Assembly (NCBI RefSeq): GCF_023028105.1
Contig: NZ_CP095491.1
Span: 1,984,001-2,048,000 of the forward strand
Origin: Halosolutus gelatinilyticus
GTDB taxonomy: Archaea; Halobacteriota; Halobacteria; Halobacteriales; Natrialbaceae
Length of the DNA stretch: 64,000 bases
Direction: 5' to 3'
The notes under the pieces are model-generated. The model made no database searches, was not told the origin of the DNA, and saw only the letters and a list, made by a program, of their open reading frames with translations. Of the stretch, positions 17,276 through 35,040 are shown piece after piece. Position numbers and translations under genes: made by a program. Position 1 is the stretch's first letter. Every line of letters starts with the position of its first letter.

Positions 17276-18186
17276 AACCGGAAGCGCTCTTGGACAAATT
17301 GACTCGTAATCAGGTCGCGTTCGCTCACGAGCCCGTCAGCAACTCACGCTGGTGGATGCTCCGAACTCTCCCTGCATTACAGTATCTCGGGATCGATCAC
17401 TTCACATTCCCCACATCGTGGCGTCAGCTCGCACAGGGAGGGTCGCAGTACGACTACCTCGATTACGAATACCACGTCACTGGTAATATGGAATTGCCGG
17501 ACGGCGCAGACCTTTGTGTCATCACAAATGAACACTACGAAACTGAGACATCGTACTCCATCGAACATTTAGTCAATAGGTTCACCTCAAGAGAGGGCAC
17601 ACTCGTAGTGATCGCAGATTCTCCACAATTCACGCCCATCGGCGGACAGCGTCCACTGTACCAGGAGCAGTTCACGGAACGAATTGGTAGCGTCGAATCG
17701 TTCTACGAGGCATTCAAACAACAGTATCGGAGGTATGATTGGGGCATGCCTCTGATAGATACTAAGAACGTGTTCATTCAGGACAATGCAAATCTCTACG
17801 AGCTTGTGGCAGGAGACTCTATTAGCCGCGCAGAACAGTTGTTTGACGTCCTTCCCGATGCTCCTTACCTGCCCCTATATAGTGTTTTCAGCGACATCTT
17901 TGCACGGCCGGATGAATACGGAAGCGTACCACTGAATACGGAAGACGAGGTTCCTGGATTGGGACGATGGCTTCGGCGGCGTATTGAGTGGGATCGACAG
18001 ACGAGTACCTCAATCGCTCGTGAGTTGAACCGGGCCGTCTCACGGGACGGTAGTGTGTTCGACCCATCCTATGCCCGGCGGAGCCCTGCGATGCAGAAAG
18101 CGAGAGATAGCACGAGCAAACTTGACCCCCAAGACAATCCTATCGACGCCAGATACCAGGACTTTCTCACGACGGAGGCACTATGA
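17272..18186 (+). CDS. Conserved-context hypothetical protein of the Dpd-like operon (304 aa)
   Basis: No family recognised. The ATG overlaps the stop of the giant helicase (ATGA) and its own stop overlaps the next ATG, so it is tightly coupled in the operon; the frame extends upstream but inside the helicase. The centre alternates strands and helices (DGADLCVITNEHYE, GTLVVIADSPQF, YDWGMPLIDTKNVFIQD), reminiscent of a degenerate PLD or nuclease-like alpha/beta fold without visible HxK or D-ExK residues. Probably a structural subunit that works with the adjacent helicase. Confidence 0.65.
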   Translation: MKPEALLDKLTRNQVAFAHEPVSNSRWWMLRTLPALQYLGIDHFTFPTSWRQLAQGGSQYDYLDYEYHVTGNMELPDGADLCVITNEHYETETSYSIEHLVNRFTSREGTLVVIADSPQFTPIGGQRPLYQEQFTERIGSVESFYEAFKQQYRRYDWGMPLIDTKNVFIQDNANLYELVAGDSISRAEQLFDVLPDAPYLPLYSVFSDIFARPDEYGSVPLNTEDEVPGLGRWLRRRIEWDRQTSTSIARELNRAVSRDGSVFDPSYARRSPAMQKARDSTSKLDPQDNPIDARYQDFLTTEAL

Positions 18187-19004
18187 CAGAAGGATACATT
18201 CTCAACACGGTTCAGACTCCAGGCCCACTACGGACGGTCTATGACTCAATAGACCGGGGTAATACGACTGAAGAAGAGATCGCTGACGACACTGATCTTC
18301 CAGAAGACCTGCGCAGCCAGGGAGTTCGGGGGCTTCAGGAGTTGGGTATGATCGGGAGGCGGGAACCCGACTATTATACGGCTGAATTTGCCTGGGAAAC
18401 GGGTAATCGAGATCTTGACTTCCGAATGACTGCACTCCACAACTTGGCGATAGAAGCGACACCGGGTGAGTGGGGGAAGCAATCGGTCGTTCTGCTCAAC
18501 TACCAGTACCTCTTACAGGAGGACATTCAACACCTCCATGCGAGTGACCAAGTTCTGTATGAGGCTATAGACAAATGGGAACACGAACAGCGCGAATACC
18601 GACCTCGGTCCCAACAAGGCCCCATCACACTCAACGAGCCCAAGTTCGTCAACTGGACCCGACTAGCTGATTTCCTCGGATTAATCGAGAAAGCCACCGG
18701 CCGCGAATACGTCGTATATCCCGACCCTGAGATGATTTTAGAATCCCTTCGAATCGCCACTGGTGACGAGAGACGGATCGCCATCCAAGAGTACATAGAC
18801 TGGCTTCGGGAGAACCTTCTACTGATCAATCTTACTGGTGAGCGGGACGTCCCCGCACCCTTCGCCCGTACACTCTACAACTTGATTCGGGAGGAGAAAA
18901 TCAAGCTGGTCGAATATGGTGATGCTGGCGTAGTTCGGCTAGATCGCTCCCCACGACGGTCCGGCATGGAGAAAGACGCGAATTCAATCGAGGTGATCGC
19001 ATGA
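18183..19004 (+). CDS. DpdG-like protein, winged-helix N-terminus (273 aa)
   Basis: Residues ~15-65 resemble a winged helix (TTEEEIADDTDLPEDLRSQG, LQELGMIGRREPDYYTAEF). The rest is helical and includes FVNWTRLADFLGLIEKATGREYVVYPDP, which looks like a second winged helix. Coupled by 4-bp overlaps to the genes on both sides. In bacterial Dpd islands a protein of about this size, DpdG, directly precedes the ATPase DpdH; the same order holds here. DpdG identity is from order and size, not a checked alignment. Confidence 0.6.
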   Translation: MTEGYILNTVQTPGPLRTVYDSIDRGNTTEEEIADDTDLPEDLRSQGVRGLQELGMIGRREPDYYTAEFAWETGNRDLDFRMTALHNLAIEATPGEWGKQSVVLLNYQYLLQEDIQHLHASDQVLYEAIDKWEHEQREYRPRSQQGPITLNEPKFVNWTRLADFLGLIEKATGREYVVYPDPEMILESLRIATGDERRIAIQEYIDWLRENLLLINLTGERDVPAPFARTLYNLIREEKIKLVEYGDAGVVRLDRSPRRSGMEKDANSIEVIA

Positions 19005-21910
19005 GTTCTTCTGAAGAGATACCGGGAGGGCCACTGTGGTGTCCACATTTCCAGAAGATCGATGAACGAACCCTGAGACAACTCTTCAGTAAGGTCGCAG
19101 CAGTACGATCCGAAAACCGAGAGCTCTTCGATTTCACTCACCGTAGAATCGAAGTTTTCCGTGGGACGAGCACAGAAGACACTGAGAAGTGGGGTGAAGA
19201 GAGGGTCTATCAGCTCTTTTCCGAGGACGAACTCGGAAACTTCGTTGTCGTCATCGAAGGTGAAGTAGGGACGGGTAAATCCGAACTGTGTGCGTATCTC
19301 TCCCACCAGTTGAACGACGACGGTCGTCCCATCCTCCACATCGACAAGGACGACGATCTCATGTCTATTCTCTCGGAACGTATTCCGGAGTTCTATCAGG
19401 AGCACTTTGAGGAACCTCTCCCAGGAGCGTCTGAATTCAAACAGCTCAGGGACGATATCACGAACAACCCCCAGACTGTCGCTAACAACGCTACTTCAGG
19501 TGCACTACTGAACCTGGGTAGACAGGGCTACGAGACTACCCATACAAGGGAAGACGAGGAGGCCATTCGGGATTTCATCCAGGAAAAGCTACAGCTCCTC
19601 GTTGAACGCGGGGAGTACGCTCGTGAGATCAAATTCATTACTGAGGGCGAGTACAAACAACAAGAGGAACTCCGCGTCTTCCCCGATCACGTCGCTGCTG
19701 ATGAGGCGGTCGAATCCTTTAATAAGGAGTTGTGGCGCGAGATCCGCGACAGGTACGACACCGCGTCGTTAGATGACGTGCTCGAATACGTCGGCAGTCA
19801 GTTCGAGGATACCCGGCCAGTAATCGTTTTCGAGGACTTCGCTATAGCCTCTATGGAGGCCGAGCGGCTCCGTAACTACATGGAGCGAGATAAACCAGAT
19901 GACAACTGGGACTTCGTCGTCGCGGGAACGCGAGACTCGACGGAAGTGCTCCATACGCGAACGGCCGAGGATCGATTCGAATTCTTCCAAACAAACAAGG
20001 GACACTCGAAGAACGTTCTATTCCTCGACGAGTCGTCTGCTGTTGACTTCGCCCGTCCATATCTCGGCTACATCAAAGCCCACGACGATAGCGTTCGATA
20101 CGATAGAGAGAATGGCGACTTCGAACTGCTGCCCGCACCGGACGGATCTCTCTGTGCAGAGTGTGGCTTCTGCGACGAAGCGTTCCGTGACCTGTTCCCG
20201 TTTAACCAGGCCTTCCTTCGCCGAATCTACACGGGCTTAGACGAAAGTCAGCAGTCACCGCGGGAGTATATTATGGAGATCTTCGAAGTTCTGGAAGAGT
20301 GGTATGAGGGTCATGCCAAAGCACCCTCAAGCGCAAGCTCCCTCCGACGGCTTCGGAATACCGTATCCGCGGCAGACGAAGTGTACGAAGAGGCCGAAGA
20401 GTTTGCGGACTTAGCGAAATGGTACGGTAGCGTTGAAGATGATCAAATCACGGTTGATCGGCGCTTTGCGGAAGCGTTCCACCTTCTAGAAGACGGGGCC
20501 CCTGCCGTTGTCGATGTAACCGATGACGGTATCATCATTCCCAGTGCGGGGGTTTCCCCCTCTGAGCCGGAAATACAGAGCGCACAGACGGAAGAAGACG
20601 ACGAGGAGTCGTCTAGTACCGACCAAACAACGACACCGGAGAAGAGTCGTGTCGAGAAGCTAATCGAGAAACACAACGGCTTAGTGGATTCTTGGCTCGA
20701 AAATCCAGAAGAATACGCTAAGACAAACCGCTTCATCCGACAGGGGCTCAGGGATGCTATCGAACATCTCACCGACGGGTTCAAACTTTACGAAGGGACC
20801 AAACTCGAATATCGACTTAGCAGTCAGAAGGATCCGTTCGTCTACGTTGAGAGTGATGACTCACCAGAAATAGATCAGATTCTGCTTGACAGACGTGACT
20901 TCAGAAGATCTGACCTCCGGAAGATACTCAAATACGGAATCCGCCGGGTAGAGGAACCGCGGAGTGCTGACGTTGATTCGCTTCTCACAGAGTGCGGGAC
21001 TCAGTTGATGTACTACGCCCTACAGTGGCGTCAAATGCTGATTGAGGAATATCTTAACGGGGAGAAGGTGTTCTACAAAGGGAGTGCAGATTATGACTTC
21101 ACGGACTTCGTCTTAGCTACATACGTTCATCTGGTGATGCTTGACTCTCCGTGGCGCAACATCGATGCGACCGTGATTAATGAACGCTTCAGTGAGGACG
21201 ACGCTTTCTCGGTTGATCTGCATCTCGAAGAACAGATTACTGAGATCCTCTCGCAGGAAGAGTACGATCACATCAAGACAGCGATGGACTCCGCCGATCA
21301 CATCGAAGCTATGGTGGGAAAACTACTGGGCGTCTCCGGGGGGAGTCTAGACGTTCCGAAGATCCGGAGACGGCTGGGTCGGAACCCGTCGTACGAGGTT
21401 CTCGACATGCTCGGTCGGCAATACATCGCAGAGATAGATAGCCGCGTTCGATTCGGACAGGAGGCTTATGTCCGGTCGATTGCGGATACGATGTACGACG
21501 TACGCCAAGCTCTCGAAGAGGTAGCGGACCACGGCTACGACCGTGAACTGATAGAGGAAATCAACTCGGAATTCTCCACGCTCAATATGACCCGAGTTTC
21601 CGAACTCGTGTCTAATCTCAGAACCTATGATAACGTGAATCCAGATCTCCAACAGGAGCTGGCGAAGTTTGTTGATTTCTCTCAGGCAGACATCGATATG
21701 GCTGTTGAGGCCGCTGATACTGCTGATACTCTCCGTATGGAAAACACCCAAGATCAGATTCAGGCAGCACTGATCTCTCTGAAGTTGGCAGCTACACCAG
21801 TCGTGAAACGGTTCCGTTCTGTTCCGATCGATGGTGCGAGCAGTAACGGTGGACACAGGGGAGGTCTCGGTGAGCGGTTCAAGGAGGTGAGCGATCACTA
21901 TGTCAGCTAA
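19001..21910 (+). CDS. dpdH: Large P-loop ATPase, DpdH-like (969 aa)
   Basis: Walker A GEVGTGKSE near residue 87 and a Walker B-like strand PVIVFEDF at about 270; a Cys cluster CAECGFCDEAF (~385) may bind zinc. After an acidic disordered linker (~525-550) the C-terminal 400 residues are helical. This fits the large ATPase DpdH, part of the restriction arm of bacterial Dpd islands. Start ATG overlaps the preceding stop (ATGA); its 3' end overlaps the next gene by 11 bp. Its likely job is ATP-driven assembly or movement on unmodified DNA, inferred from Dpd genetics. Confidence 0.65.
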   Translation: MSSSEEIPGGPLWCPHFQKIDERTLRQLFSKVAAVRSENRELFDFTHRRIEVFRGTSTEDTEKWGEERVYQLFSEDELGNFVVVIEGEVGTGKSELCAYLSHQLNDDGRPILHIDKDDDLMSILSERIPEFYQEHFEEPLPGASEFKQLRDDITNNPQTVANNATSGALLNLGRQGYETTHTREDEEAIRDFIQEKLQLLVERGEYAREIKFITEGEYKQQEELRVFPDHVAADEAVESFNKELWREIRDRYDTASLDDVLEYVGSQFEDTRPVIVFEDFAIASMEAERLRNYMERDKPDDNWDFVVAGTRDSTEVLHTRTAEDRFEFFQTNKGHSKNVLFLDESSAVDFARPYLGYIKAHDDSVRYDRENGDFELLPAPDGSLCAECGFCDEAFRDLFPFNQAFLRRIYTGLDESQQSPREYIMEIFEVLEEWYEGHAKAPSSASSLRRLRNTVSAADEVYEEAEEFADLAKWYGSVEDDQITVDRRFAEAFHLLEDGAPAVVDVTDDGIIIPSAGVSPSEPEIQSAQTEEDDEESSSTDQTTTPEKSRVEKLIEKHNGLVDSWLENPEEYAKTNRFIRQGLRDAIEHLTDGFKLYEGTKLEYRLSSQKDPFVYVESDDSPEIDQILLDRRDFRRSDLRKILKYGIRRVEEPRSADVDSLLTECGTQLMYYALQWRQMLIEEYLNGEKVFYKGSADYDFTDFVLATYVHLVMLDSPWRNIDATVINERFSEDDAFSVDLHLEEQITEILSQEEYDHIKTAMDSADHIEAMVGKLLGVSGGSLDVPKIRRRLGRNPSYEVLDMLGRQYIAEIDSRVRFGQEAYVRSIADTMYDVRQALEEVADHGYDRELIEEINSEFSTLNMTRVSELVSNLRTYDNVNPDLQQELAKFVDFSQADIDMAVEAADTADTLRMENTQDQIQAALISLKLAATPVVKRFRSVPIDGASSNGGHRGGLGERFKEVSDHYVS

Positions 21911-22574
21911 TTCCAGTACGTTTCAGGAACAGCTAAAGACGATTTACGAACAGCACCGGCGACAAGGCCTGGAATCAGAACTAGACGAGCTCGCAGAAAC
22001 GATGGAGGAAACAATTCTCGAACGAGTTCTTGCTGAAGCCTTCTTCCGGACTGAAGTTAAGATAGACTCTGAGGCGAAACACGCGGTCGAAGAGGCTCGA
22101 TCTCTGTTAGAACAGGACGATTACGATGCTCTCGCAGAACAACTTCCCGAGACCCGCGAAGCTGTCGAAGCTCAACGGAGGGAGGTCAACAACTTCGTTC
22201 ACCAAGCGAGAATCGACGTCCACAACACTGTCCGAGGCATGATTCGGTTGAACCAGCGGGTTGAGCGGGTAGACCAAGACAAGTTAGATGCGCTCGATAC
22301 CCTCCTCGATAACTGGAACTGGGAGGCACAGATTGAGGGGGGTCAAATCAACCAGCGGAAAGAGGAGGCCAGAGAGTACGGTCACTTCATGCGTCAATCA
22401 CTAGAGGAGGCAAAGGACGCTCTGTTTGGCCCATACCGGGATACACCGCTTGATGATCTCGTTGACCGGTTATTAGACGACGAACGGCTAACGTTGGCAG
22501 CGCTCTCGGAAGAGGAGCTCACTCGTCTCTATGAGTCGGATCTCGCAGAATATCTCGAAGTGACTCTCTCGTAA
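21900..22574 (+). CDS. Coiled-coil protein, DpdI-like by position (224 aa)
   Basis: Almost entirely helical and strongly acidic, with heptad-like runs (ELDELAETMEETILERVLAE, AVEAQRREVNNFVHQAR). No catalytic motif. It starts inside the end of the ATPase gene (11-bp overlap) and precedes the DpdJ-like helicase, the place taken by DpdI in bacterial islands. A bridging or assembly subunit between ATPase and helicase is the likely role. Family identity not established from sequence. Confidence 0.6.
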   Translation: MSANSSTFQEQLKTIYEQHRRQGLESELDELAETMEETILERVLAEAFFRTEVKIDSEAKHAVEEARSLLEQDDYDALAEQLPETREAVEAQRREVNNFVHQARIDVHNTVRGMIRLNQRVERVDQDKLDALDTLLDNWNWEAQIEGGQINQRKEEAREYGHFMRQSLEEAKDALFGPYRDTPLDDLVDRLLDDERLTLAALSEEELTRLYESDLAEYLEVTLS

Positions 22575-22632
22575 TCGCCTCTTGTGGAAAGATTGATTGC
22601 GGCATCGTGTCCATCTCCAACAAATCGACTAC

Positions 22633-25600
22633 ATGAAGTACTTTGATCGGAACTCGAATGCCTCACGAATCCCTGGTGATATCCGACCACTGATTCGCGG
22701 TTTTCTCTCAAACACCCAGATATTTGATGCTGATCAAGACAATCCTCCCCACATCACGGATGCTGTCAAGTACACACAGAGGCCACAGGATCGACGAGCC
22801 ACGAGTAAATACACTGGTGACGATCAGTTCGTTGCTGATATCATCGAACTCTTCGATTTCAAGCCACTCGACTTTCAGGTCGAAAGCTGGCAGCTGATCC
22901 GCGACCTCGATGCGGATCGACGGTCATCCAACAACTCTCGTGGCGCGATCTTCTCGGCACCCACTGGCTTTGGAAAGACAGAAGCGTTCCTCGGCCCACT
23001 CTATCAGCTATTAGCAGAGGATCAACAGGACTTGGCAATCGTCGTCTATCCGAGTCGGGCACTCTTACAGGACCAACTCGGACGGATTCTAGAACATCTG
23101 TACAAACTTAGAACGGAGCACGATACTAGCCTTTCTGTTGGGGTCTGGACCGGTAACACGCCGTATACGTCATCAGAGGTTGAAAGAGAAGGCGCGTTTT
23201 TCGCTAATCAGCATGGTACGCGTCGATTCAAGCTCGCAGATTGCTGGTGCGGAGACGACGGAACTCACTCATTCACCTACCAAGGAGGAAGTTCAACTTA
23301 CCGACTGGTTTGCGAGAACAATGATGCACACTCCTTCTCTGACCGGGAGATCCTGCTTAATCGGACTGATATCAAAAATCAGCCTGGACCTGACATTCTT
23401 CTGACGACGTTAGAATCCCTGGAGCTGTTCTCACTCAAACCGAACTACAACATCATTGATCGGGCCGATACGATTGTATTCGACGAAGTACACCTGTACA
23501 CCGGGCTCAGAGGAGCACATACCGCAAATATAGCACAAAATATCGAGGCGATAACAGACCATTCGCTGCTCTGGCTAGGCTCAAGCGCGACGGTCGATGA
23601 TCCACAGCGGTTCGCTACTGATCTCTTTCCCGTTCCAAGTGGACGAGTTGAATCAGTTGCACCACCTGACTCAGATTTCCGAACGGACCACGAGGACAAG
23701 GAGCACTACTACTTCCTCAAAACGTCGGAGGAAGGCCCTGGAGTCTCATCGATGGCCATCCAGCAGTTGATGTTGCTTGGACATAGCCTCTTGAACAGCG
23801 AGACCGGTGAGCGCGGGAAAATCCTCTCATTCATCGACAGTATAAGCCAAGTGAACCAAAAGAGGGCGCAACTGGAGGACGCTGATCGAGCAAACGAACT
23901 CTGGCGGTACCACAGAACTGGAAGAGATTACTCTAACTGGGATCGGGTAGCTAAAGAGATGGACTGCGAGTTCATCGAATCTTCACTCCACTTCGAATCT
24001 GTCTACTCAGACGCTGGATTCGACGCGGCTGCTACAGCCGAGAGCGACCTGCTGCTCTCGACGAGCTTCCTTGAAGTTGGGATCGACGTCGGTGAAATCA
24101 CTATCGTCACGCAGTATCGGACGCCGTGGGATCTGTCGTCATTCATTCAGCGTGCGGGACGAGCAGCACGGAAGGAAGACACCGACTCACACATTGTCGT
24201 GTTCCTCTCGGATCTCACTCAGGACGCGAATATGTTCTATCGTGCCGACCGTTTCCTCGGGTCTGAAATTCGAACGCCATTGAAGACGGACAATCACGTG
24301 ATTGCCTGGATCCACGACCAGTTCGAGAAGTTCTACGAAACATCAACAGCTGTCTCGAAAGAGTGGTTCTCTGGGTCAATTGACCGGAAGGAAGAATTCC
24401 TCGAACGATTCCTCTGTTCAGAGCTGGGCTACAAACAGTACTACGAGTTCATCACGGAACCTGCAGCGGTATTGCGCCGAGAGTTCGGAATTGACGTGGC
24501 TGAGAGTCAGCTCCCTGCATTACATGGAGAGGAGCCAGTTGAGACTGTAGATCAGCTTCTGTCCGAGCTTCGGGAGGACGTGACACAGCCCGAGATCTCG
24601 GATCTCATCGAGGATCAGGTTGGGCAGGCCATGCAAAGAGAAGACTTGGCCCGGTCTCTAGTTTCAGAGATTAGGACCGATTTCTTGGAATTCTGTAGCC
24701 AGCGACAAGCGCTAATCGACGAGATCGAAGATTCCGATGTCACTACCGAAGAGAAGGTCAAATCACAGCTCGATGCCTTGGAATCAACCTTAGAAGAGCT
24801 CCGAACCTCTGTCACAGATCTCGCTGAAACTCCGCCTACTGAACAAATCGAGGCATTAGACGATCTTATCCCTGATCTCTACGGGATAACGAGTGACGTC
24901 GAGAGACTCCGGCGTGTCGTTGACCGAGAACACGAGTCTGTCACCCTTCCAGAACTGCCGACCTCCGTTGATCAGATGGTTGACCGCGTTGATACAGCCA
25001 GCCGCGCGATTAAAAGCGAGGAGCTCGACAAGACGGCAACGAAGCGTAAACAGATCTACTATCTCAGACAGACGCTGACTCAGCTCGACGAATACAACTC
25101 TATTGAACAGAACGATAAGAGCCTGTACTACGTCAAGCATCTCCTTCGAGGGTCGTATTATTATGACCGGTTCCTGAAAGTTGACGGACGTTCGCTTGAA
25201 GGCACCGTCTGGTACGTTCCCCCGAACTACTTCCAAGACGCTGGGAAGTACTTCACGGTGTTCTATGGGGAGGACGATGAGAGTGGCGACGAACAGTCTA
25301 TAGACAAACTCGTTCAGACATATGCTCCGTACCGTAGCGAGTATCAACAAGAGGCAGGTCATTTACAAGCCTACCTACCCGAAACCATTACTGATGATGA
25401 CGGGGTCAGATTCTCCTTTGAGGACGTCCCCGGTGACCGCCGCGACGGTATGATTACTCCGGACTCTATCACTCTTGACGATATAGAAGATCTCAGCGGC
25501 GGTCGCGCTCTGAATATCGTCAGGTACTGTCCCGAGTGTTTCCGGATTCTAAAAGAGGATCGGTGCTTACGACATAACGATAGAGCGTTCGGAAAAATTC

Positions 25601-26709
25601 ATTCTAATCCGGAAGTTGAGACTAAACTTGAAGGGCGTCAAGAGGAAGCGACACGGGGGAGAGCAAGCCTCGCTGACATTACCGGTAAAGTGACTCTCAC
25701 GGGAGTATCTCTCGAAATCACACCGGCACGACCCGTTGGTGAAGAAAACGAGTTCATATTTACCGGCGAGGATCGGATTTCTCAGGAGATTACGACCGGA
25801 AATCGGCCCTTGGGTTTCTCGCTCGATACCCGAGGGTTGATTTTCGACCTAAGCAACTTCGTGTCCGACATTGACGAAGAGACTAAGAAACGAGTACGTC
25901 GCTACAAGTCGCTGAATGAGTTATCACTCAACGAGGTGGCTCGGCATACAGCGGCACACTGTTTCACTCAGTTAGTCGCCGATATTGGCGGAGTCAATCC
26001 AAGTATGCTCTTCTACGGGATTGATCACGAAGCCGACGAGGTATATGTGTTTGAGCGGTCTCAGGGTGGCCAAGGTATCGTTGATTTGGTTTACGAAGAC
26101 CTCCAGACCGATCCGGGTACGGCACTAAATGCGCTGACCCATATCTGCTATAATCCACAGGTCATCAACGAGAGGCTTTGGGCGTCGGAGGATTTCGTGG
26201 AACGAATACCGGAAGACCCAGATGAACACACTGTTCGAGAAGTCGTCCGTGGTATGGATGAAACTCCGATCTTCCCCGATATCGTCGATCTGATCGTGGA
26301 TGAAGTACTCTCCTCGATTGATCGAGCTAGGCAGCTTTCGAGTGAGGAAGGCATCTCGACCCAAACGGCATACCTAATCAAACAGACCGTCTCAAAAGAG
26401 CAGGTAGCGGGCAACAATGAATTCCCTGCTGATGCGGTCAGAAAAATGCCACACGACATTGGAGACTTTGATCGGGTGAAATCCCTGTTTTTCTCTCCGG
26501 ATATTGACGGTTGTGTCGAGAATCTACACTTAGCGGAGTGCATATCGGCACACGACCAGTCGGAGAGCTTGAGCTACGTCTTGCTTGAACGTCTCCGAGA
26601 GATGCTGATCGAAAGAGTTCCCTCCGAAGATGCCGCGTCGCAAATGATCGAGCGAGAGATGCTTCCAGGAGGTGAGATCGATGGTACGAGCGTTTTCTTT
26701 ACCCTCTAG
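22633..26709 (+). CDS. dpdJ: Giant helicase with DUF1998-like C-terminus, DpdJ-like (1358 aa)
   Basis: Walker A APTGFGKTEAFLGP near residue 110, IVFDEVHLYTG (DEVH, ~282), WLGSSATVDD, LLSTSFLEVGIDVG and FIQRAGRAARKEDT (motifs V/VI). A long helical insertion (~670-830) follows, then a zinc knuckle (CPECFRILKEDRC) and a DUF1998-like end (HTAAHCFTQLVADIGG, ERSQGGQGIVDLVYEDL). Size, architecture and position between a coiled-coil gene and a PLD gene match DpdJ of bacterial 7-deazaguanine islands. The ATG at 22633 is preferred to TTG 22597. Expected to act in the restriction arm. Confidence 0.75.
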   Translation: MKYFDRNSNASRIPGDIRPLIRGFLSNTQIFDADQDNPPHITDAVKYTQRPQDRRATSKYTGDDQFVADIIELFDFKPLDFQVESWQLIRDLDADRRSSNNSRGAIFSAPTGFGKTEAFLGPLYQLLAEDQQDLAIVVYPSRALLQDQLGRILEHLYKLRTEHDTSLSVGVWTGNTPYTSSEVEREGAFFANQHGTRRFKLADCWCGDDGTHSFTYQGGSSTYRLVCENNDAHSFSDREILLNRTDIKNQPGPDILLTTLESLELFSLKPNYNIIDRADTIVFDEVHLYTGLRGAHTANIAQNIEAITDHSLLWLGSSATVDDPQRFATDLFPVPSGRVESVAPPDSDFRTDHEDKEHYYFLKTSEEGPGVSSMAIQQLMLLGHSLLNSETGERGKILSFIDSISQVNQKRAQLEDADRANELWRYHRTGRDYSNWDRVAKEMDCEFIESSLHFESVYSDAGFDAAATAESDLLLSTSFLEVGIDVGEITIVTQYRTPWDLSSFIQRAGRAARKEDTDSHIVVFLSDLTQDANMFYRADRFLGSEIRTPLKTDNHVIAWIHDQFEKFYETSTAVSKEWFSGSIDRKEEFLERFLCSELGYKQYYEFITEPAAVLRREFGIDVAESQLPALHGEEPVETVDQLLSELREDVTQPEISDLIEDQVGQAMQREDLARSLVSEIRTDFLEFCSQRQALIDEIEDSDVTTEEKVKSQLDALESTLEELRTSVTDLAETPPTEQIEALDDLIPDLYGITSDVERLRRVVDREHESVTLPELPTSVDQMVDRVDTASRAIKSEELDKTATKRKQIYYLRQTLTQLDEYNSIEQNDKSLYYVKHLLRGSYYYDRFLKVDGRSLEGTVWYVPPNYFQDAGKYFTVFYGEDDESGDEQSIDKLVQTYAPYRSEYQQEAGHLQAYLPETITDDDGVRFSFEDVPGDRRDGMITPDSITLDDIEDLSGGRALNIVRYCPECFRILKEDRCLRHNDRAFGKIHSNPEVETKLEGRQEEATRGRASLADITGKVTLTGVSLEITPARPVGEENEFIFTGEDRISQEITTGNRPLGFSLDTRGLIFDLSNFVSDIDEETKKRVRRYKSLNELSLNEVARHTAAHCFTQLVADIGGVNPSMLFYGIDHEADEVYVFERSQGGQGIVDLVYEDLQTDPGTALNALTHICYNPQVINERLWASEDFVERIPEDPDEHTVREVVRGMDETPIFPDIVDLIVDEVLSSIDRARQLSSEEGISTQTAYLIKQTVSKEQVAGNNEFPADAVRKMPHDIGDFDRVKSLFFSPDIDGCVENLHLAECISAHDQSESLSYVLLERLREMLIERVPSEDAASQMIEREMLPGGEIDGTSVFFTL

Positions 26710-27121
26710 TGGGCTATCGTACTTTATCGGGTACTCTCTCGTTCACGCCCAACGTGTGGCGATATGTTCGCCATGGCTCAGCGATGTGGAACTGCGCTTT
26801 CCACTCACCGATGAATTGTCGAGCCGCCGACTTTCCCTGTCCGCGGCGATTAGAGAGTTGAAGACGGATGTTGATTTCTACGTTCGCACTGGCGAACAAC
26901 ACAACGACTACATGCGCTCTCTCGTCTCCCGTATGGGAAATACCTCAATGACTACCGTAGATGATCTACATGCGAAAGCCGTCGTGGGTCCCGAACTAGT
27001 GTACGTAGGATCTGCAAATATCACTCACAGTGGTCTGACGGTCAACCGGGAGCTCTGTGAAATCATGGAGAATGAGTACGGAAGCGTTAGCGCATACTTA
27101 GATACAGAGCTAGGACTTTGA
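26681..27121 (+). CDS. dpdK: Single-HKD PLD-like protein, DpdK-like (146 aa)
   Basis: Contains one phospholipase-D motif at about residue 96: LHAKAVVG, with VGSANITHSGLTVN and the downstream Glu (NRELCEIMEN). One HxK-N motif per chain implies a dimeric active site, as in PLD-type nucleases (Nuc, BfiI). Start ATG at 26681, 8 bases after AGGAGG, lies inside the end of the helicase gene. It closes the operon as DpdK closes bacterial islands, and DISARM DrmC is similar. Likely the nuclease, or one of the nucleases, that cuts DNA lacking the modification. Confidence 0.75.
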   Translation: MVRAFSLPSSGLSYFIGYSLVHAQRVAICSPWLSDVELRFPLTDELSSRRLSLSAAIRELKTDVDFYVRTGEQHNDYMRSLVSRMGNTSMTTVDDLHAKAVVGPELVYVGSANITHSGLTVNRELCEIMENEYGSVSAYLDTELGL

Positions 27122-27699: not shown

Positions 27700-28410
27700 T
27701 CAGTCACTGTAGCTAGGGCGCTCTCGATATCTAATCGGATCCTTCATTCCTACGTCTTGGAATGCTTTGAGTCGGTAGGCACATGCATCGCAAGTACCAC
27801 AGGCTGGTTCCTCATTGCGGTAACAGCTCCACGTAAGCTCGTACGGAACATCGAGATCTAGACCACGCTCCGCAATCTCTGTTTTCGTCCAATCCACGAA
27901 CGGTGCCACCAAATCGATTGACGTCTCTGGCTTCGTCCCGATATCTATGACCTGTTGGAACGCATCAAAGAATTCCGGGCGGCAATCCGGGTAACCAGAG
28001 TAGTCCTCGCTGTGTGCACCAATAAAGATGGCCCCACAGTCGTTTGCTTCAGCGTACGACGTGGCCATTGATAGCAGGTTCGAGTTCCGGAACGGAACGT
28101 AGCTTGACGGTATCTCATCGCTATCGAGATCGACTTCTTCCACATCGATGTTCTCGTCAGTAAGGCTGGAAGCACCGATCCGAGCTAAGTGGTCTGTTTC
28201 GATGTGAAGGAAGTCCGCGACATCCATATAGTCGGCCAATGCTCGGGCGCACTCTGACTCTTTGTCCGCTGTTTGTTGGCCGTAGGTCGTGTGGAGGAAG
28301 TACAAGTCATATCCCCTGTGCTTCGCCTCAAAAGCTGCAGTCGCACTATCCATCCCGCCCGATACAAGGACAACCGCGCTATCCGTGTTATCTGCTTGAG
28401 TAGTCGTCAT
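27700..28410 (-). CDS. queC: 7-cyano-7-deazaguanine synthase QueC (236 aa)
   Basis: PP-loop VVLVSGGMDSATAAFEA at the N-terminus, the SYVPFRNSNLLSMATSYAE segment, GAHSEDYSGYPDCRPEF, and a C-terminal zinc site CYRNEEPACGTCDAC: the full QueC signature. It converts 7-carboxy-7-deazaguanine to preQ0 with ATP and ammonia. It is last in a queD-queE-queC operon (17-bp gap to queE) transcribed away from the TGT-like genes. preQ0 is the base inserted by TGT/DpdA enzymes, so this operon supplies the modification module, beyond any tRNA archaeosine needs. Confidence 0.93.
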   Translation of the reverse strand: MTTTQADNTDSAVVLVSGGMDSATAAFEAKHRGYDLYFLHTTYGQQTADKESECARALADYMDVADFLHIETDHLARIGASSLTDENIDVEEVDLDSDEIPSSYVPFRNSNLLSMATSYAEANDCGAIFIGAHSEDYSGYPDCRPEFFDAFQQVIDIGTKPETSIDLVAPFVDWTKTEIAERGLDLDVPYELTWSCYRNEEPACGTCDACAYRLKAFQDVGMKDPIRYRERPSYSD

Positions 28411-28427
28411 GGCTGTATAACTTGATG

Positions 28428-29210
28428 CTATGTTTCGGGTGCGTCGTTCCAGAGGTCAACGTGAAGTCGGGGCGTGTATTGATATCCGTGCTCCAACGCT
28501 ACCTCCGCAGCCAGTTCACGGGTTTTCGACAGTCGTTCACGTGTCGAACCCTCCGGCATCAACAAAATATCTGAATCTCGGATCACCGCATCTGCAGCGT
28601 CCCGGAGCCGGTCAACTAACCGGTTGATCTCGGGTATATCTTCTCTATCTGTAACTACAAATTTTAGCTGGAAATCATAGGCCTCCACCAACTTGCAGAG
28701 AGTGTCTATGTCGATCCGTCGATCATCGTGTCGGGCGGCCCATTCCCCATTTCCCTGCGGGTCCTTTGCTGCAGTCGGAGTACTGCTCGCCAGTTTGGGG
28801 CTGATACTCACTAGATCGATAGAAGTATCGTGATAGATTGTACCGTTGGTTTCGACGGTAGTATGGTAGCCAGCATCGCTAAGGCGGTCTAACAGATTGG
28901 TCGTCTCGTCGTGGAGCAATGGTTCACCGCCGGTCACGACGACGTGGTTTGCTTTCTTATAATCGGTGACACGGTCGATGACAGCATCGACATCGAGCCA
29001 GGCGTGGGTCGGCTCCCAGCTGGTGTGGAACGAGTCACAGAACCAGCACCGGAGATTGCAACCACTCGTCCGGACAAACACGCTCGGCATTCCGGCGATC
29101 TTCCCTTCCCCTTGTAACGAGTAAAACAGTTCATTCACTGGTAGTCCGTCCTTCGTCTCTGCGCCAAGAGAACCCTTCTCAACCGTTGGAACATCTGAAT
29201 TCACCGGCAT
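28428..29210 (-). CDS. queE: 7-carboxy-7-deazaguanine synthase QueE, radical SAM (260 aa)
   Basis: LFYSLQGEGKIAGMPSVFVR followed by CNLRCWFC, the radical-SAM CxxxCxxC of QueE, then HVVVTGGEPLLH and VETNGT. It turns CPH4 into CDG with SAM and Mg2+. ATG at 29210, 4 bp after the queD stop, is chosen; the frame extends upstream into queD. The Cys-containing GCNLRCWFCDSFHTSWEP stretch is intact, so the enzyme should be active. Coupled to queD and queC. Confidence 0.92.
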   Translation of the reverse strand: MPVNSDVPTVEKGSLGAETKDGLPVNELFYSLQGEGKIAGMPSVFVRTSGCNLRCWFCDSFHTSWEPTHAWLDVDAVIDRVTDYKKANHVVVTGGEPLLHDETTNLLDRLSDAGYHTTVETNGTIYHDTSIDLVSISPKLASSTPTAAKDPQGNGEWAARHDDRRIDIDTLCKLVEAYDFQLKFVVTDREDIPEINRLVDRLRDAADAVIRDSDILLMPEGSTRERLSKTRELAAEVALEHGYQYTPRLHVDLWNDAPET

Positions 29211-29214
29211 TGCT

Positions 29215-29682
29215 CTATAGAGCTCCTCCGGCAGCGAGCTCACCGGTCTCTCGAACCTCAACTTCAACATTACTGACCGTTTCCGGCAATGTTTCCTTCA
29301 GCCGTCGTTCAAGAACGATCCCCATCACTTCGGCTGTCGGGGGCTGGTTGAGCACGATTAGGGCATCGCCGTCGCCGCTGGCCTCAAAAGCCTCAATCAG
29401 TGGATCGCCCTTCTCCACGAGAAATCGGTGATCCCACTCGGATAATACAGAAGTGACGTCTCCCTTATCGATGACCCACCCTTCGCTGGTCAGGGTGCCA
29501 GTTATCGAGACGCTGATTTTGTAGTTATGCCCATGGGGACGGCTGCACTTGCCGTCATGGTGTAGAATCCGGTGCCCTGTACTCAAACGAATCGGCCGGT
29601 CACGTCCGACGTGTAAGGTTCTCTCAGCCTCGGAGATATCCTCTGATGTGGGGGAATACTCTCCAGATAGGTTTTGAGCCAT
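29215..29682 (-). CDS. queD: 6-carboxy-tetrahydropterin synthase QueD (155 aa)
   Basis: PTPS-family zinc and catalytic residues: STGHRILHHDGKCSRPHGHN (His, catalytic Cys, HGH) and WDHRFLVEKGDP, PPTAEVMG. It makes CPH4 from 7,8-dihydroneopterin triphosphate. The ~25-residue N-terminal extension before the fold is unusual but keeps an ATG start. First gene of queD-queE-queC, with a 143-bp divergent region shared with the TGT-ArcS gene. No GTP cyclohydrolase lies in the window; it is presumably elsewhere. Confidence 0.9.
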   Translation of the reverse strand: MAQNLSGEYSPTSEDISEAERTLHVGRDRPIRLSTGHRILHHDGKCSRPHGHNYKISVSITGTLTSEGWVIDKGDVTSVLSEWDHRFLVEKGDPLIEAFEASGDGDALIVLNQPPTAEVMGIVLERRLKETLPETVSNVEVEVRETGELAAGGAL

Positions 29683-29825
29683 ACTGTGGTATTATTTGTG
29701 GCATACTTAACTTTGAACCACTCGCCGAAAGTTATAGTGACTCCGGGAATGGGTTGGAGATATGATGATTTTGAGAACGAGAAGTTAATTGAGGGCAACG
29801 ATAGAGTTACTACACAGGTCATTTG
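29683..29825. promoter_or_regulatory. Divergent promoter region between queD and the TGT-ArcS operon
   Basis: AT-rich 143-bp gap between two divergent operons of one pathway, with several TATA-like stretches (for example ATTATTTG near 29691-29698). It likely allows joint control of precursor synthesis and base insertion. No perfect inverted repeat of 8 bp or more was noticed. Confidence 0.45.
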
Positions 29826-31721
29826 ATGTCGGCATTCAGGACTCTTGGAAAGGCTTCATACGGCCGCCGAGGCGAAATAGACACGCCCGCCGGCTATATC
29901 CAGACGCCCGAGCTTCTACCTGTAGTAAATTTGATCGGAGGGACGACAACAGAATCCGGTGGTATCTGGCGGTATACCCGTCGCCACCTCTTCGAGAGCG
30001 ACAGCGTCCAGGGGATTATGTTTCAAGCGATGTCGTTTCTCGACTACAATCTCACCCCCGAGAATTTGGAGGAGTGGCGTGAGAAGCCGCTCAAACAGCA
30101 TTTCGAGGAGAGTGACGTTGAACCCGGGTTTGATCAGCCGCTATTCATCGACTCGGGCGGATTTAAGCTGATGAACTCGACGAAGTTCGGACAAACGCCT
30201 GGCGAAGGCGGTAGTGAGAACGACTGGGATATCTACACGAATCCAGAGAGCATCTTGGACTTGCAGCTTGACTACGGCGCGGATATCATTGCCACGTTGG
30301 ACTTTCCGATTCCACAGAACCTGAATAAGGAAGAAACCACTGAACGGATGGAGAAGAGTATCGATAACGCGGTTGAAACTCTCCGGTTGCTCGACGAACG
30401 CGAGCTGGAGGAGACGCCGTCTATGTATGTGGCCATACACGGCCACAACTACGAGGATGTCAACTGGTATGTCAGTCAATTTCTGGACCGCGCCGATGAA
30501 CTTGATGAGGCCTTCGAGGGGTTCGCCCTGGGTTCACTTGTTCCCCTCAGCAGCTCTCCAGATACCTTGGTCGATATCGTTCAAGGGGCAAGAGACGCGA
30601 TACCCGAGGACCGTTACGACGAAATCGCATTCCACGTCTTCGGCATAAGTGGAAGGCTCTGTCCTCTACTATCTCTCCTCGGGGTAGATACGTTCGATTC
30701 GAGAAGCTATCAGTACGCAGCCCGGAACAAGAAGTTCATCCACCCCAACACCTGGCAACGGATTAGTCTTGATCAGATTGATGACTGGGATGATTGGCCC
30801 TGTGACTGTCAGGCCTGTCAGAACATCCACTTAGACGATATGCGGCACGCCTTGCTAGAATCCGAGGTCAGTAACAAGCCCATCGAAGGCGAACACGGGA
30901 CTCATTTCAAGAGCGAATACTACGCACAGATAGCTCATCACAACTTCGAACTGTACAGCCGCCAGATGCAACAAGTTCGTGATGCCATTGACGAGGGGCA
31001 TTTACTCGAACGTGTTGCTAACTTCGCACAGGGAAAGAATATCGTAGAGAAAGCGCTGAAGCGGGCTCAGCTACACAACCCAGAACTCCGCGAACAACTT
31101 GCAGACATCGGTTACGAAGGGTTAGTTGCCGGACCGGATGACGAGACGTTCCAGACCAAGCTATCTAGCTTCCTCGAAGGAGTCGAGGACACGACACGGA
31201 AGAAACGGACCATCTCGTTGAAGCACGGGCCAAACGACTTCGATATCCTCCAGCGCGACGAGTATCAGCCGCCGAGCGAGGCAGATGTACTACTGATTCT
31301 ACCCTGTAGTCAGGAGAAGCCGTATTCGAAGTCACGGACACATCAGGCTGTCCTCTCCCGTCTTGAGGACTACCGTGAGCGATATCATAAGGTGTCCATC
31401 TCAGGGCTATACGGGCCGGTACCTGAGGACTTCGAAGAGGCTAACCCGGTGATGAGCTACGAGTATGTATTGACGACTGCCGATGACGACCAAGTTGAAC
31501 TTGTTGCGAACCGACTTGCTCGTTACCTGAACCGGTACGGTGAGCAATTTGACCAAATTATAGCCTACACCACGAACAAAGCCTACCGACGTGCTATCGA
31601 TACGGCGTTCAACCGGTATGGCCGCGGTGAAATATACCCATCTGATCCGCGAGCTCTTCAGTTGACCGAGCATTTCCGCAGTGAAAATATCGACGAGCTC
31701 GTTGGTCGGTTTACCAGTTGA
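29826..31721 (+). CDS. TGT-like (DpdA-type) protein carrying an ArcS signature (631 aa)
   Basis: Residues ~1-400 are TGT-like: LFIDSGGFKLM, IIATLDFPIP, FALGSLVPLSS, FHVFGISG, the nucleophile region GVDTFDSRSYQYAARNK (~286-302) and a zinc site CxCxxC at 326/328/331 with HH downstream. The C-terminal domain has PCSQEKPYSKSRTH (~493-506), matching the published archaeosine-synthase motif PC-X3-KPY-X2-S-X2-H. No PUA tail is evident. ArcS itself is a TGT paralogue, so this may be a DNA-directed ArcS that inserts preQ0 and/or converts it to archaeosine. It heads the modification operon. ATG 29826 is preferred to TTG 29823. DNA rather than tRNA as substrate is inferred from the Dpd-like neighbours. 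Confidence 0.8.
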   Translation: MSAFRTLGKASYGRRGEIDTPAGYIQTPELLPVVNLIGGTTTESGGIWRYTRRHLFESDSVQGIMFQAMSFLDYNLTPENLEEWREKPLKQHFEESDVEPGFDQPLFIDSGGFKLMNSTKFGQTPGEGGSENDWDIYTNPESILDLQLDYGADIIATLDFPIPQNLNKEETTERMEKSIDNAVETLRLLDERELEETPSMYVAIHGHNYEDVNWYVSQFLDRADELDEAFEGFALGSLVPLSSSPDTLVDIVQGARDAIPEDRYDEIAFHVFGISGRLCPLLSLLGVDTFDSRSYQYAARNKKFIHPNTWQRISLDQIDDWDDWPCDCQACQNIHLDDMRHALLESEVSNKPIEGEHGTHFKSEYYAQIAHHNFELYSRQMQQVRDAIDEGHLLERVANFAQGKNIVEKALKRAQLHNPELREQLADIGYEGLVAGPDDETFQTKLSSFLEGVEDTTRKKRTISLKHGPNDFDILQRDEYQPPSEADVLLILPCSQEKPYSKSRTHQAVLSRLEDYRERYHKVSISGLYGPVPEDFEEANPVMSYEYVLTTADDDQVELVANRLARYLNRYGEQFDQIIAYTTNKAYRRAIDTAFNRYGRGEIYPSDPRALQLTEHFRSENIDELVGRFTS

Positions 31722-31786: not shown

Positions 31787-32266
31787 ATGCGATCAGCAGA
31801 GTATATGACGTCGTTATTAGTCCAATCGTGTTCTGCAACGAAGGAACAGGTGGATACACCGGTTCCTGCTCTCGATTTGTACGATGGATACTTCTTCAGG
31901 ATTATAAAGAAGGCATTGCGCACGGGTCGATTTCAGTCTGGAATTGACATTATGATTATATCTGCGGAACACGGAGTTGTAGAACCTGATCAGGAAATCG
32001 AATATTATGACCGTCGGATGGACACAGAACGTGCTGACAAATTGAATGACCAAGTCGTCAGCGCTATTGCTAGGAAAGTCACTACTAACGGGTATGACAA
32101 GGTATGGATCAATCTTGGAAAGGACTATCTTCCCGCTATTGATGGGGTTGAATCTGCCGTTGATGTACCCGTTGACTATATCGAAGGTACCGGTATCGGA
32201 ATGAAGGGAAAGCGGCTGAAGCACTTGGTTTCCAGCGGCCGTTCCATTCCAGTGCACGGTGACTGA
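31787..32266 (+). CDS. DUF6884-like protein (159 aa)
   Basis: LLVQSCSATKEQ, then VPALDLYDGYFFRIIKKALR and IMIISAEHGVVEPDQEIEYYD: the DUF6884 pattern (SC..TK...A.DLY.s.lFr; lSA.HGl..p...i..Yd). The Cys-Ser-x-x-Lys resembles the PCSxxKP of ArcS, so the fold may be related. DUF6884 domains occur near 7-deazaguanine DNA-modification genes in phages. It is 65 bp after the TGT-ArcS gene and overlaps or abuts the second TGT gene. It may supply the base-modifying or nucleotide-binding function. ATG 31787; 31805 possible. Confidence 0.7.
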   Translation: MRSAEYMTSLLVQSCSATKEQVDTPVPALDLYDGYFFRIIKKALRTGRFQSGIDIMIISAEHGVVEPDQEIEYYDRRMDTERADKLNDQVVSAIARKVTTNGYDKVWINLGKDYLPAIDGVESAVDVPVDYIEGTGIGMKGKRLKHLVSSGRSIPVHGD

Positions 32267-32270
32267 CAGT

Positions 32271-33518
32271 ATGGTCTCATTCGATGTTGTTGCGGAGGCA
32301 GGCGAGGCACGACGTGGTCAGCTCCAGATTAACGACCGTACTCTGGAAACCCCGCACCTGTTCCCGGTGATCAACTTCTACGGCGGTGGTAACGAGGGCG
32401 CACTATTTGGTGGCGGTGTCCACCGTACGATCAAGGAGTTCCTTGCCCACGACAACGAAGTAACCGGTGGTGAAGACTATAGCGACCTCTTCAACGGTGT
32501 GATGACTTCGATTTCCTCCCTAGCAGACTACGGCATTCGGGAAAAGAAGCTGGAATGGTATCTCGACAACGAGATCCGCGAGTGGGAATGTTTCAGCGAC
32601 TATGACGGGATGATCTTCGCAGACTCCGGCGGCTACAAAATCCTGAAGCAAGGTGGCCTAGAAGGTGAGGACTTCGAGAAGGACATCGACCAGGATAAGG
32701 CGCTAGACATCCAGTTAGATCTTGGACCAGACATCGTGGTCAACCTGGACCACCCAATCCATCCGGATGACGAGTTCGAGGAGCGGATCGAGAAGATGGA
32801 GCAGACCGCCGTCAACGCTGCCCGATTCGCGGAGCGTCGTGACGAAGTCGACGGTGCCTGCTACCTCACAGTACATGGCTACTATGAAGCGATGCTCGAA
32901 CGATCCTTCGACCTCATTGAAGACGAACTCGCAGAACCAGTCCCTGAAGCTTTCGACGGAATCGCGCTCGGTAGCCTCGTCCCACGGAAAGATAACGTCG
33001 AAGTTCTCGTCGAAGCAGTATCTGACTGTAAACGGGAGATGCAACAGCGAGGTTATGAAGATCTCCCTCTACACGTATTAGGGATCTCAGGGAACGCAAT
33101 GCCGTTGCTCGTCGCTGTTGGGGCTGATACCTTCGATTCTGCCTCCTATCTGCACCAAGCGATCAACGGGAAGTATTGCGTCAACCTGTTTGAGACAGTT
33201 CCGATTGATGATGCGAACTTCGATGCCTGTGAATGCCGCGTCTGTAACGACGATTTCCACCGAGCACGGATGCGAAACGAGATGGACGACCTATATCAGA
33301 AGGATATCCTCGGCTCGGTGGCTGCGCACAATCTTGCGGTTCAACAACGGGAACTTCGCAAATTCCGTCAATTGATCGCCGAAGGCGACAAGGAACGGGT
33401 CGCGGAGTACTTGGAGGAGGCTGTGAAGGACCAGAAAGGTTTCCGCAAGTTCGCTTACCAGCTAATCAACGAACGGATTAACCCGTACTTCGAGGAAACA
33501 GACACAACCTATGCATAA
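32271..33518 (+). CDS. Second TGT/DpdA-like transglycosylase (415 aa)
   Basis: Starts like its operon paralogue and keeps the TGT elements: MIFADSGGYKIL, DIVVNLDHPIHPDD, GIALGSLVPRKDN, LHVLGISGNAMP, GADTFDSASYLHQAING (catalytic Asp region, ~286-290), and a zinc site CECRVC (~320-325) with a downstream His (VAAHNLAVQ). No PUA or ArcS domain. DpdA proteins exchange guanine in DNA for preQ0; two paralogues in one operon suggest a heterodimer or one catalytic and one modifying partner. ATG at 32271 aligns with the paralogue's start; a GTG at 32259 overlaps the previous gene. Overlaps the ATPase gene by 8 bp. Confidence 0.82.
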   Translation: MVSFDVVAEAGEARRGQLQINDRTLETPHLFPVINFYGGGNEGALFGGGVHRTIKEFLAHDNEVTGGEDYSDLFNGVMTSISSLADYGIREKKLEWYLDNEIREWECFSDYDGMIFADSGGYKILKQGGLEGEDFEKDIDQDKALDIQLDLGPDIVVNLDHPIHPDDEFEERIEKMEQTAVNAARFAERRDEVDGACYLTVHGYYEAMLERSFDLIEDELAEPVPEAFDGIALGSLVPRKDNVEVLVEAVSDCKREMQQRGYEDLPLHVLGISGNAMPLLVAVGADTFDSASYLHQAINGKYCVNLFETVPIDDANFDACECRVCNDDFHRARMRNEMDDLYQKDILGSVAAHNLAVQQRELRKFRQLIAEGDKERVAEYLEEAVKDQKGFRKFAYQLINERINPYFEETDTTYA

Positions 33519-35040
33519 GACACCACAAGTCAACGAAGTCAACGAGTTCATCGAGATAGCGAGCGACTTCGAGGACCCGTTGGAAGTTATCAGAGAAGCA
33601 CTATCCAATTCCTACGACGCAGGCGCGACGCAGGTCGATATCAGTATCGAGCAGGATGCCGAGGGACGGAACACTCTCATCATCAAGGATGATGGCCATG
33701 GAATGGATGAAGACGACCTGTCGTCGTTCTTTGACCTCGGGAACTCCAACAAGGACGACGCAATCGGATACAAGGGCCACGGTACCAAGATCTACTACAA
33801 AAGCGACAAGATTCGGGTTGAGACAGTCACAGATGGGACGCGGATTGAGTCGGTGATGGACCAGCCGTGGGCGAAACTGAACAACCGTGAACTACCCACG
33901 TACTCCATCGAAGAGACGGAGAGCGACGAACCGTCCCGAACCCGAATCGAAGTACATGGGTTCCGTGCTGGTCAGGGTTTCGACCCACGACAGCTTACCT
34001 ACAACAAGATTGAGCACTACATCAAATGGAAGACGATCGGCGGCTCCACCGCGTGGCACTTCGGCGACGACTTCCACGAGATGGACATCAACGTTGAGTT
34101 GTCGCCGACAATCGACGATACCCAGGATCAGATTGAGACCGACAACCGCCTACAGTTCCCGCCCGAAAACCGGCATCCAGAGGGCGAGTTCGTTGCGGAA
34201 GAAATGTGCAAGCATTACCCGCCCCGTGAGCTGACCGTCACCCTTGACGATGGCCGCGAATTAACGATCGAAGTCGTGGGGATGGTCGGTGGAAAGGAAG
34301 CACGGAATAAGCTGCCGACCTATGGTAAGCACTCAGCACAGTTCGGTATCTGGCTGGCGAAAGATCACATCAAGGTCGAACGCTACAACGATGCGATCGG
34401 AGCAGACAACGAGTTCTTCCACTTCTTCTTCATCGCAAACTGCCAAGACCTCGAACTCTCTGCCAACCGGGAGAAGATTCGAAACAAGTCCGGCGACGTC
34501 TACCAGGCCATCACTGATGAACTGAACCGATACATGACCAAAGTGTGCCAAGATTCCTGGTACCGGAACTATATCGAACGTCGCAAGCTGGAGAACAAGC
34601 AACGCAGCATCCAGTCGCAGGGAAGCTCACTCGAAGAACGCCTCCAGCATACCAAAGACCAAGGTGGACTCTCCCCGTCGAATCCGGCAGAGGTCATCGC
34701 AGCATTAGAACGGTACAGCGCTAATGGATCACCAGAGACCCTTGAGATAGCGGACTTCCGATTGGACGAAGAGGTTAATGCTATCGTTGACACCGATGAG
34801 GGATACAAGAACGCAGCACTACAGGCCAAGCTCAGTGATTTCTTCGAAAATGAGACTCCGCTGACTCACATCGACCGGTTCATATGCTGGAAGCTCGGCG
34901 ATCGGGACGCTTTGACCAAAATTGAGCGGACCTCCTATCTCGGTAAACCCATCCGCTTTGATTTCAGCAATAACGAGGTGACGTATGGGGATGAGAATAA
35001 GAAAACGATCCCTGTTCTCGAATTAGCAGACAAAGTGTAA
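33511..35040 (+). CDS. GHKL (Hsp90/MORC-like) ATPase (509 aa)
   Basis: Bergerat-fold motifs: EALSNSYDAGATQVDI (N box), IKDDGHGMDEDDL (G1) and IGYKGHGTKIYY (G2), all in the first ~100 residues, followed by a transducer-like domain and a helical C-terminus. Such ATPases (MutL, topo VI B, MORC) clamp onto DNA. It overlaps the second TGT gene by 8 bp and closes the operon. Bacterial DpdA needs the ATPase DpdB; no DpdB-like gene is seen here, so this protein may play that part. This substitution is a hypothesis. Confidence 0.8.
   Translation: MHKTPQVNEVNEFIEIASDFEDPLEVIREALSNSYDAGATQVDISIEQDAEGRNTLIIKDDGHGMDEDDLSSFFDLGNSNKDDAIGYKGHGTKIYYKSDKIRVETVTDGTRIESVMDQPWAKLNNRELPTYSIEETESDEPSRTRIEVHGFRAGQGFDPRQLTYNKIEHYIKWKTIGGSTAWHFGDDFHEMDINVELSPTIDDTQDQIETDNRLQFPPENRHPEGEFVAEEMCKHYPPRELTVTLDDGRELTIEVVGMVGGKEARNKLPTYGKHSAQFGIWLAKDHIKVERYNDAIGADNEFFHFFFIANCQDLELSANREKIRNKSGDVYQAITDELNRYMTKVCQDSWYRNYIERRKLENKQRSIQSQGSSLEERLQHTKDQGGLSPSNPAEVIAALERYSANGSPETLEIADFRLDEEVNAIVDTDEGYKNAALQAKLSDFFENETPLTHIDRFICWKLGDRDALTKIERTSYLGKPIRFDFSNNEVTYGDENKKTIPVLELADKV

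Follow-up and report, generated by a model that had tools for sequence, protein, structure and literature searches.

A TGT-ArcS fusion in a Dpd-like island of Halosolutus gelatinilyticus: a candidate modification enzyme for cellular DNA

Does a protein that joins a TGT domain to the core of ArcS, and whose gene lies among Dpd-like genes, act on tRNA or on the DNA of its own cell? In the literature archaeosine in DNA is reported from viruses, and the bases described for host islands are dPreQ0 and dADG. A protein fusing TGT to ArcS, encoded in a host defence island, is a candidate for the use of 2'-deoxyarchaeosine (dG+) as a cellular self-mark. Such a fusion is encoded in the 64,000-nucleotide stretch of Halosolutus gelatinilyticus DNA analysed here (the window). 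On balance we lean slightly towards the view that it is the DNA-modifying enzyme in a defence island of Dpd-like (BRIGADE type I) kind, by which self DNA would receive dG+ or its lysine precursor.

Domain make-up and separation from the tRNA enzymes

Based on Pfam, the TGT domain occupies residues 14-403 of the fusion (E 5.9e-30) and DUF5591, the ArcS core, residues 479-604 (E 6.9e-20), the ArcS part extending over about 479-632. The DUF5591 domain contains the complete motif PC-x3-KPY-x2-S-x2-H as PCSQEKPYSKSRTH at residues 494-507 of the 632-aa reading; this is the motif that the sequence-only reading had placed at 493-506, counted from the ATG. Its remarks that the TGT zinc and nucleophile regions are intact and that a PUA domain is missing also agreed with our results. 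The residues concerned are conserved in the fusion alignments and, in an alignment that includes E. coli Tgt, every fusion and TGT2 sequence retains the two catalytic Asp, the Asp that recognises the base and the zinc ligands (for TGT2 see Table 1). At E<=0.1 neither PUA nor TGT_C2 was detected in the fusion. The fusion thus keeps both active sites, whereas tRNA ArcS has lost two of the three TGT-type Asp (catalytic/base-recognising), and the cell's own ArcS contains DUF5591, TGT_C2 and PUA. At the position of the Gln of tRNA TGTs (Z. mobilis Q203), a His is found in the fusion, in TGT2 and in certain further archaeal TGTs. Residues D110, D289, D292, H373, P494, C495, S496, K499, P500, Y501 and S504 are invariant in 18 aligned orthologues, and the final H of the ArcS motif occurs in 25/28.

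The AF2 model of the fusion (pLDDT 81) has two confident domains joined by a low-confidence linker at about 439-467. The whole-model fold search covers residues 1-436 well, and the P. horikoshii ArcTGT was the fold match of residues 2-436 (Z 35). For the ArcS domain the fold is based on the profile match (tRNA ArcS profile, 99.7% probability), on the sequence match of this half to AF0587 (2q07; E 4e-9) and on the match of the DUF6884 model to 2q07 and YaaA.

Copy numbers were taken from family searches of the genome. Exactly four TGT matches were identified, namely TgtA, ArcS and two in the island, and two DUF5591 matches, ArcS and the fusion. The count of arcS and tgtA copies that had been proposed therefore revealed a separate TgtA and a PUA-bearing ArcS elsewhere in the genome; a RaSEA gene is also present, outside the island. 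In the TGT tree, built by a quick method and with some long branches, the fusion groups with TGT2 (support 99), separately from TgtA (99) and tRNA ArcS (100). In the DUF5591 tree, which leaves out the wrong-strand ORF solo_L208, the fusions form one clade (97/92) and tRNA ArcS another (100/99). The outcome set beforehand as refuting, a firm grouping of the fusion with the only tRNA ArcS of the cell, was seen in neither domain tree, and the AU test rejected a union of the window's fusion and the ArcS of the same cell (p 5e-100). The fusion scored 127 bits with the tRNA ArcS model NF040592 (curated cut-off 440 bits) and 113 bits with the tRNA TgtA model TIGR00432 (cut-off 350 bits), falling below both, and 107.6 bits with the TGT superfamily model TIGR00449, over its cut-off of 47.6, with the catalytic Asp and CxCxxC...H present. 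By these sequence comparisons the fusion is distinct from the cell's tRNA enzyme.

The surrounding island

Downstream of the fusion the DUF6884, TGT2 and GHKL genes follow with gaps within 66 nt or with overlaps, the DUF6884 gene starting 65 nt after the fusion and having intact motifs. The genes for QueD, QueE and QueC lie upstream and are divergent (Table 1).

Table 1. Coordinates in the window of the fusion and of the genes assigned to its island
Feature	Position	Strand	Basis or remark
DruE/BrxH-like helicase with MrfA zinc-binding domain, second YprA-type	12539..17275	+	profile matches (MZB)
Conserved island protein, no family	17164..18186	+	15/28 neighbourhoods
Conserved island protein, no family	18183..19004	+	15/28 neighbourhoods
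P-loop ATPase	19001..21910	+	weak DpdH match, E 7e-4
Conserved island protein, no family	21900..22574	+	15/28 neighbourhoods
DpdJ-like helicase, YprA family, Dpd branch	22597..26709	+	profile matches
DpdK-like phospholipase D-type nuclease	26672..27121	+	profile matches
QueC, preQ0 synthase	27700..28410	-	second QueC elsewhere in genome
QueE homologue, preQ0 supply	28428..29270	-	profile match
QueD homologue, preQ0 supply	29215..29682	-	profile matches
TGT-ArcS fusion ORF	29823-31721	+	632 aa from TTG, 631 from ATG at 29826
DUF6884 protein, DpdC/YaaA superfamily	31787..32266	+	CS-x2-K, SA-x2-G invariant
TGT2, second TGT, DpdA-like, 419 aa	32259..33518	+	catalytic and zinc residues invariant; tree
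GHKL (HATPase_c_3) ATPase	33511..35040	+	Pfam

The Dpd-like neighbourhood reported from the sequence was supported, with DpdJ- and DpdK-like proteins, the DpdA-like TGT2, DUF6884 and preQ0 genes. The DpdJ and DpdK homologues matched at E 1e-53 and 3e-11, both below the NCBIfam cut-offs, and with the DpdA model NF041059 (cut-off 200 bits) TGT2 scored 26 bits, the fusion not being among the matches. The bacterial Dpd island (DpdA-K) shares with this one a TGT, a DUF6884/DpdC-family protein and preQ0 genes, and its DpdJ and DpdK have putative counterparts here. This island differs in having two TGTs, one of them ArcS-fused, a GHKL ATPase and a DruE-like helicase, and in having no recognisable DpdB: among the scanned window proteins none matched DpdB (PADLOC/NCBIfam). 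The GHKL ATPase is possibly a functional stand-in for the ATP-using DpdB.

In the main text of the preprint by Bell et al. (2025; PMC12458937), BRIGADE type I is a Dpd-like class exclusive to halophilic archaea, with ARMADA-like and Dpd-branch YprA helicases, a PLD nuclease and a predicted 7-deazaguanine cluster. By profile the window has candidates for both helicases, one DruE-like with MZB for the ARMADA/Druantia-like type and one DpdJ-like for the Dpd branch, together with the PLD nuclease and the 7-deazaguanine cluster, in a halophilic archaeon. By its gene content the island probably belongs to BRIGADE type I as described there. That main text contains no TGT-ArcS fusion, ArcS, archaeosine, GHKL ATPase or assigned base, does not mention cyanobacterial relatives of the fusion, and reports no anti-virus activity of BRIGADE. 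The fusion is thus a candidate tailoring enzyme absent from the main-text description; priority for the fusion and its ArcS signature is uncertain.

Distribution and relatives

Full-length orthologues of the fusion were identified in 28 of 293 order-level haloarchaeal genomes, at 48-98% identity; as the motif residues are invariant, a chance origin of motif or domain is excluded. The fusion and TGT2 occur together in 27 of the 293 genomes, the fusion alone in one and TGT2 alone in two (Fisher 1e-34, relatedness ignored); TGT2 was not detected in the fusion genome G141. DUF6884 is present in 25/28 fusion neighbourhoods, and the DUF6884, TGT2 and GHKL genes lie on one strand, in fixed order and with gaps <100 nt (25/25). 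Restriction-type genes were found in 13-17 and a DpdK-like gene in 7 of the 28 neighbourhoods. Apart from the QueE gene, no radical SAM gene, RaSEA type included, is conserved in the 28 neighbourhoods. In the two TGT2-only genomes (L091:7390-8777 and L092:6942-8329) the fusion's place upstream is taken by a 310-aa protein without known family and a second DUF6884, and ArcS chemistry is therefore not obligatory. A single island on a Haladaptatus plasmid (L213:20001-24700) has two TGT-ArcS fusions that are paralogues. At three other haloarchaeal loci (L095, L096, L216) a TGT of 344-346 aa adjoins a protein of 967-969 aa, one segment of which is DUF6884-like, and QueD/QueE are present as well.

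Outside haloarchaea, full-length fusions with about 36% identity were found in cyanobacteria (Planktothrix and an Oscillatoriales MAG; 3/194 sampled genomes). A GmrSD/DUF262 gene (PADLOC NsnA, PD-T4-2_A) and a HEPN gene adjoin the cyanobacterial fusion at three of four loci, and at the fourth the contig edge falls inside the GmrSD gene. At L224:9655-13668 the fusion and the GmrSD/HEPN pair are separated by a gene of 1338 aa. A search of two fusion-bearing cyanobacterial genomes gave no RaSEA, and a role in tRNA archaeosine is therefore hard to reconcile with these fusions.

In two Firmicutes MAGs (L145:890-2780, L146:8583-10474) a divergent TGT gene lies beside a lone DUF5591 gene. In Sulfolobus virus STSV2 (L217:4007-5417) the TGT-like ORF15 directly precedes a DUF5591 ORF, ORF16; both are annotated as hypothetical, and the sequence of the pair suggests viral deazaguanine DNA modification. 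With the cyanobacterial, Firmicutes and STSV2 cases, the pairing of TGT and ArcS core is recurrent outside tRNA modification. A viral origin of the fusion was considered and rejected, there being no relative in IMG/VR and no phage match of the whole fusion.

Proposed reaction and competing products

In the mechanism that we propose, QueD, QueE and QueC would supply preQ0, and the TGT domain, with or beside TGT2 and helped by the GHKL ATPase, would exchange selected guanines of self DNA for it. C495 of the ArcS domain would attack the preQ0 nitrile, and nitrogen transfer from ammonia, or from lysine that RaSEA of the cell would release afterwards, would give the amidine. The host DNA would then be marked by dG+ or its lysine precursor, and the YprA-type helicases and PLD nuclease would attack DNA without the mark. 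These predicted steps start from what was established directly: domain make-up, intact residues, separation from the tRNA enzymes, a conserved association with defence genes, and occurrence in RaSEA-less bacteria. From these we infer that DNA is the substrate; the Cys chemistry, the exact product, the division of labour with DUF6884 and the restriction itself are predicted in turn.

The proposal of archaeosine in DNA therefore stood in part: the ArcS-type domain is present and a DNA target is well supported, while the exact base is a prediction. With an ArcS-type catalytic domain, Dpd-like linkage and a non-tRNA status, the foremost prediction is a DNA mark of dG+ type. As to the single product, dG+ is held tentatively, at somewhat less than even weight, dADG is rather unlikely and a lysine adduct unlikely, the rest going to other products. 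The estimates are divided because ArcS enzymes differ in nitrogen donor: those characterised mostly transfer lysine, RaSEA then completing G+, whereas that of M. jannaschii is reported to form G+ directly from ammonia, Asn or Gln (PMC11298593). The T. kodakarensis ArcS is active on preQ0 nucleoside derivatives, and tRNA structure is therefore not required; it needs a complex with RaSEA for activity (PMC11298593). This dependence weakens the reading as dG+ or its lysine precursor, and the lack of a conserved RaSEA-type gene in the islands does so too. So do the neighbouring DUF6884, which could make dADG, the two TGT2-only genomes, the absence of a detected TGT2 from G141, and the trace amount in Vibrio phage nt-1, an ArcS-bearing phage of measured DNA in which dG+ is 0.02% of G (PMC6884629).

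Like the fusion, the systems of phage 9g (Gat-QueC) and of nt-1 (DpdA2 and ArcS) combine a TGT homologue with an amidotransferase, there on viral DNA. These phage systems differ in serving virus self-protection and in using separate proteins, Gat-QueC in 9g and a set giving only trace dG+ in nt-1 (PMC6884629). The tRNA pathway of ArcS, ArcTGT and RaSEA has the same two catalytic domains on two proteins. Haloviruses had been cited as carrying dG+ together with a viral ArcS, which does not hold for HVTV-1: its DNA has about 30% dPreQ1 and trace dG+, and the virus has no ArcS, encoding QueF-L and no DpdA; EMA11768 of H. vallismortis is a host DpdA (PMC6884629).

DUF6884 is the domain of DpdC (PMC11888242) and is related to YaaA (PMC11701544). 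In hhalign DUF6884 and the ArcS core aligned end to end, with probabilities of 88-94% in three comparisons and 39% in one, and have C-S-x2-K and S-x3-G in common. The AF2 model of DUF6884 (pLDDT 90) matched YaaA (Z 11.1) and, among DUF5591 proteins, AF0587 (Z 9.3), the next match being at 6.8. By these profile and model comparisons ArcS, DpdC and YaaA prove to be one superfamily joined by a shared Cys/Lys motif, in which the ArcS core and DUF6884 may be interchangeable nitrile-tailoring modules. The suggestion that ArcS simply replaces DpdC is unsupported, because DUF6884 adjoins the fusion and belongs to the same superfamily as its ArcS core. In the DpdA of Picosynechococcus (L214) and Paenibacillus (L144) a TGT is likewise fused to a CS-x2-K member; they differ from the fusion in an N-terminal DUF6884 in place of DUF5591, in domain order and in TGT clade.

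This kinship bears on the reading in which island and DNA target are the same and the final mark is dADG, an amide, both ArcS and DUF6884 hydrating the Cys-bound nitrile as DpdC does and the ArcS motif being phylogenetic heritage. To this we give a minor share of our confidence. It is favoured by the homology of DUF6884, YaaA and DUF5591, by the frequent DpdC-like neighbour with its intact motif (25/28), and by the SG-x-YGPVP of the fusion, which departs from its tRNA ArcS counterpart TSPLGVVPRELE. Hutinet et al. note that phage ArcS may double as an amidohydrolase (PMC6884629), and a Coleofasciculus MAG (L135:363-1960) has a related, fusion-type TGT whose C-terminus is of DUF6884 instead of DUF5591 type, in a broken frame. 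However, the full ArcS-characteristic PC-x3-KPY-x2-S is invariant in the orthologues, the domain resembles ArcS (99.7%) far more closely than DUF6884 (39-90%), and a second hydrolase within the same operon would be superfluous.

A broader conjecture, to which we attach a low probability, is that haloarchaea and a few cyanobacteria mark their own cellular DNA with a base conjugated to an amino acid, dPreQ0-Lys, or with dG+ made from it, that one enzyme with two active sites writes this mark, and that interchange of ArcS and DUF6884 sets the mark of each island. That the stable adduct dPreQ0-Lys is itself the mark, the ArcS domain transferring lysine with no radical SAM step after it, is still less probable. 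Lysine transfer by most characterised ArcS enzymes, with RaSEA as finisher (PMC11298593), agrees with it, as does the missing RaSEA in the two cyanobacterial genomes and its lack of conservation in the islands; but the M. jannaschii enzyme is reported to work with ammonia, Asn or Gln, the haloarchaeal cell has RaSEA, and lysine binding by the fusion is putative. Very improbable is a spare or specialised TgtA/ArcS pair making archaeosine in tRNA or other RNA: both domains come from tRNA-modifying families and ArcS tolerates varied RNA substrates (PMC11298593), but trees, the missing PUA and C2 and the genomic context (defence-island linkage, a full tRNA set elsewhere) led us to reject a tRNA role, and the patchy spread (28/293) and cyanobacterial occurrence argue likewise.

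A lone DUF5591 protein of 220-250 aa with PCA-x2-KPY is widespread in methanogens (L208, L209 and other loci), and the same genomes have a normal ArcS.
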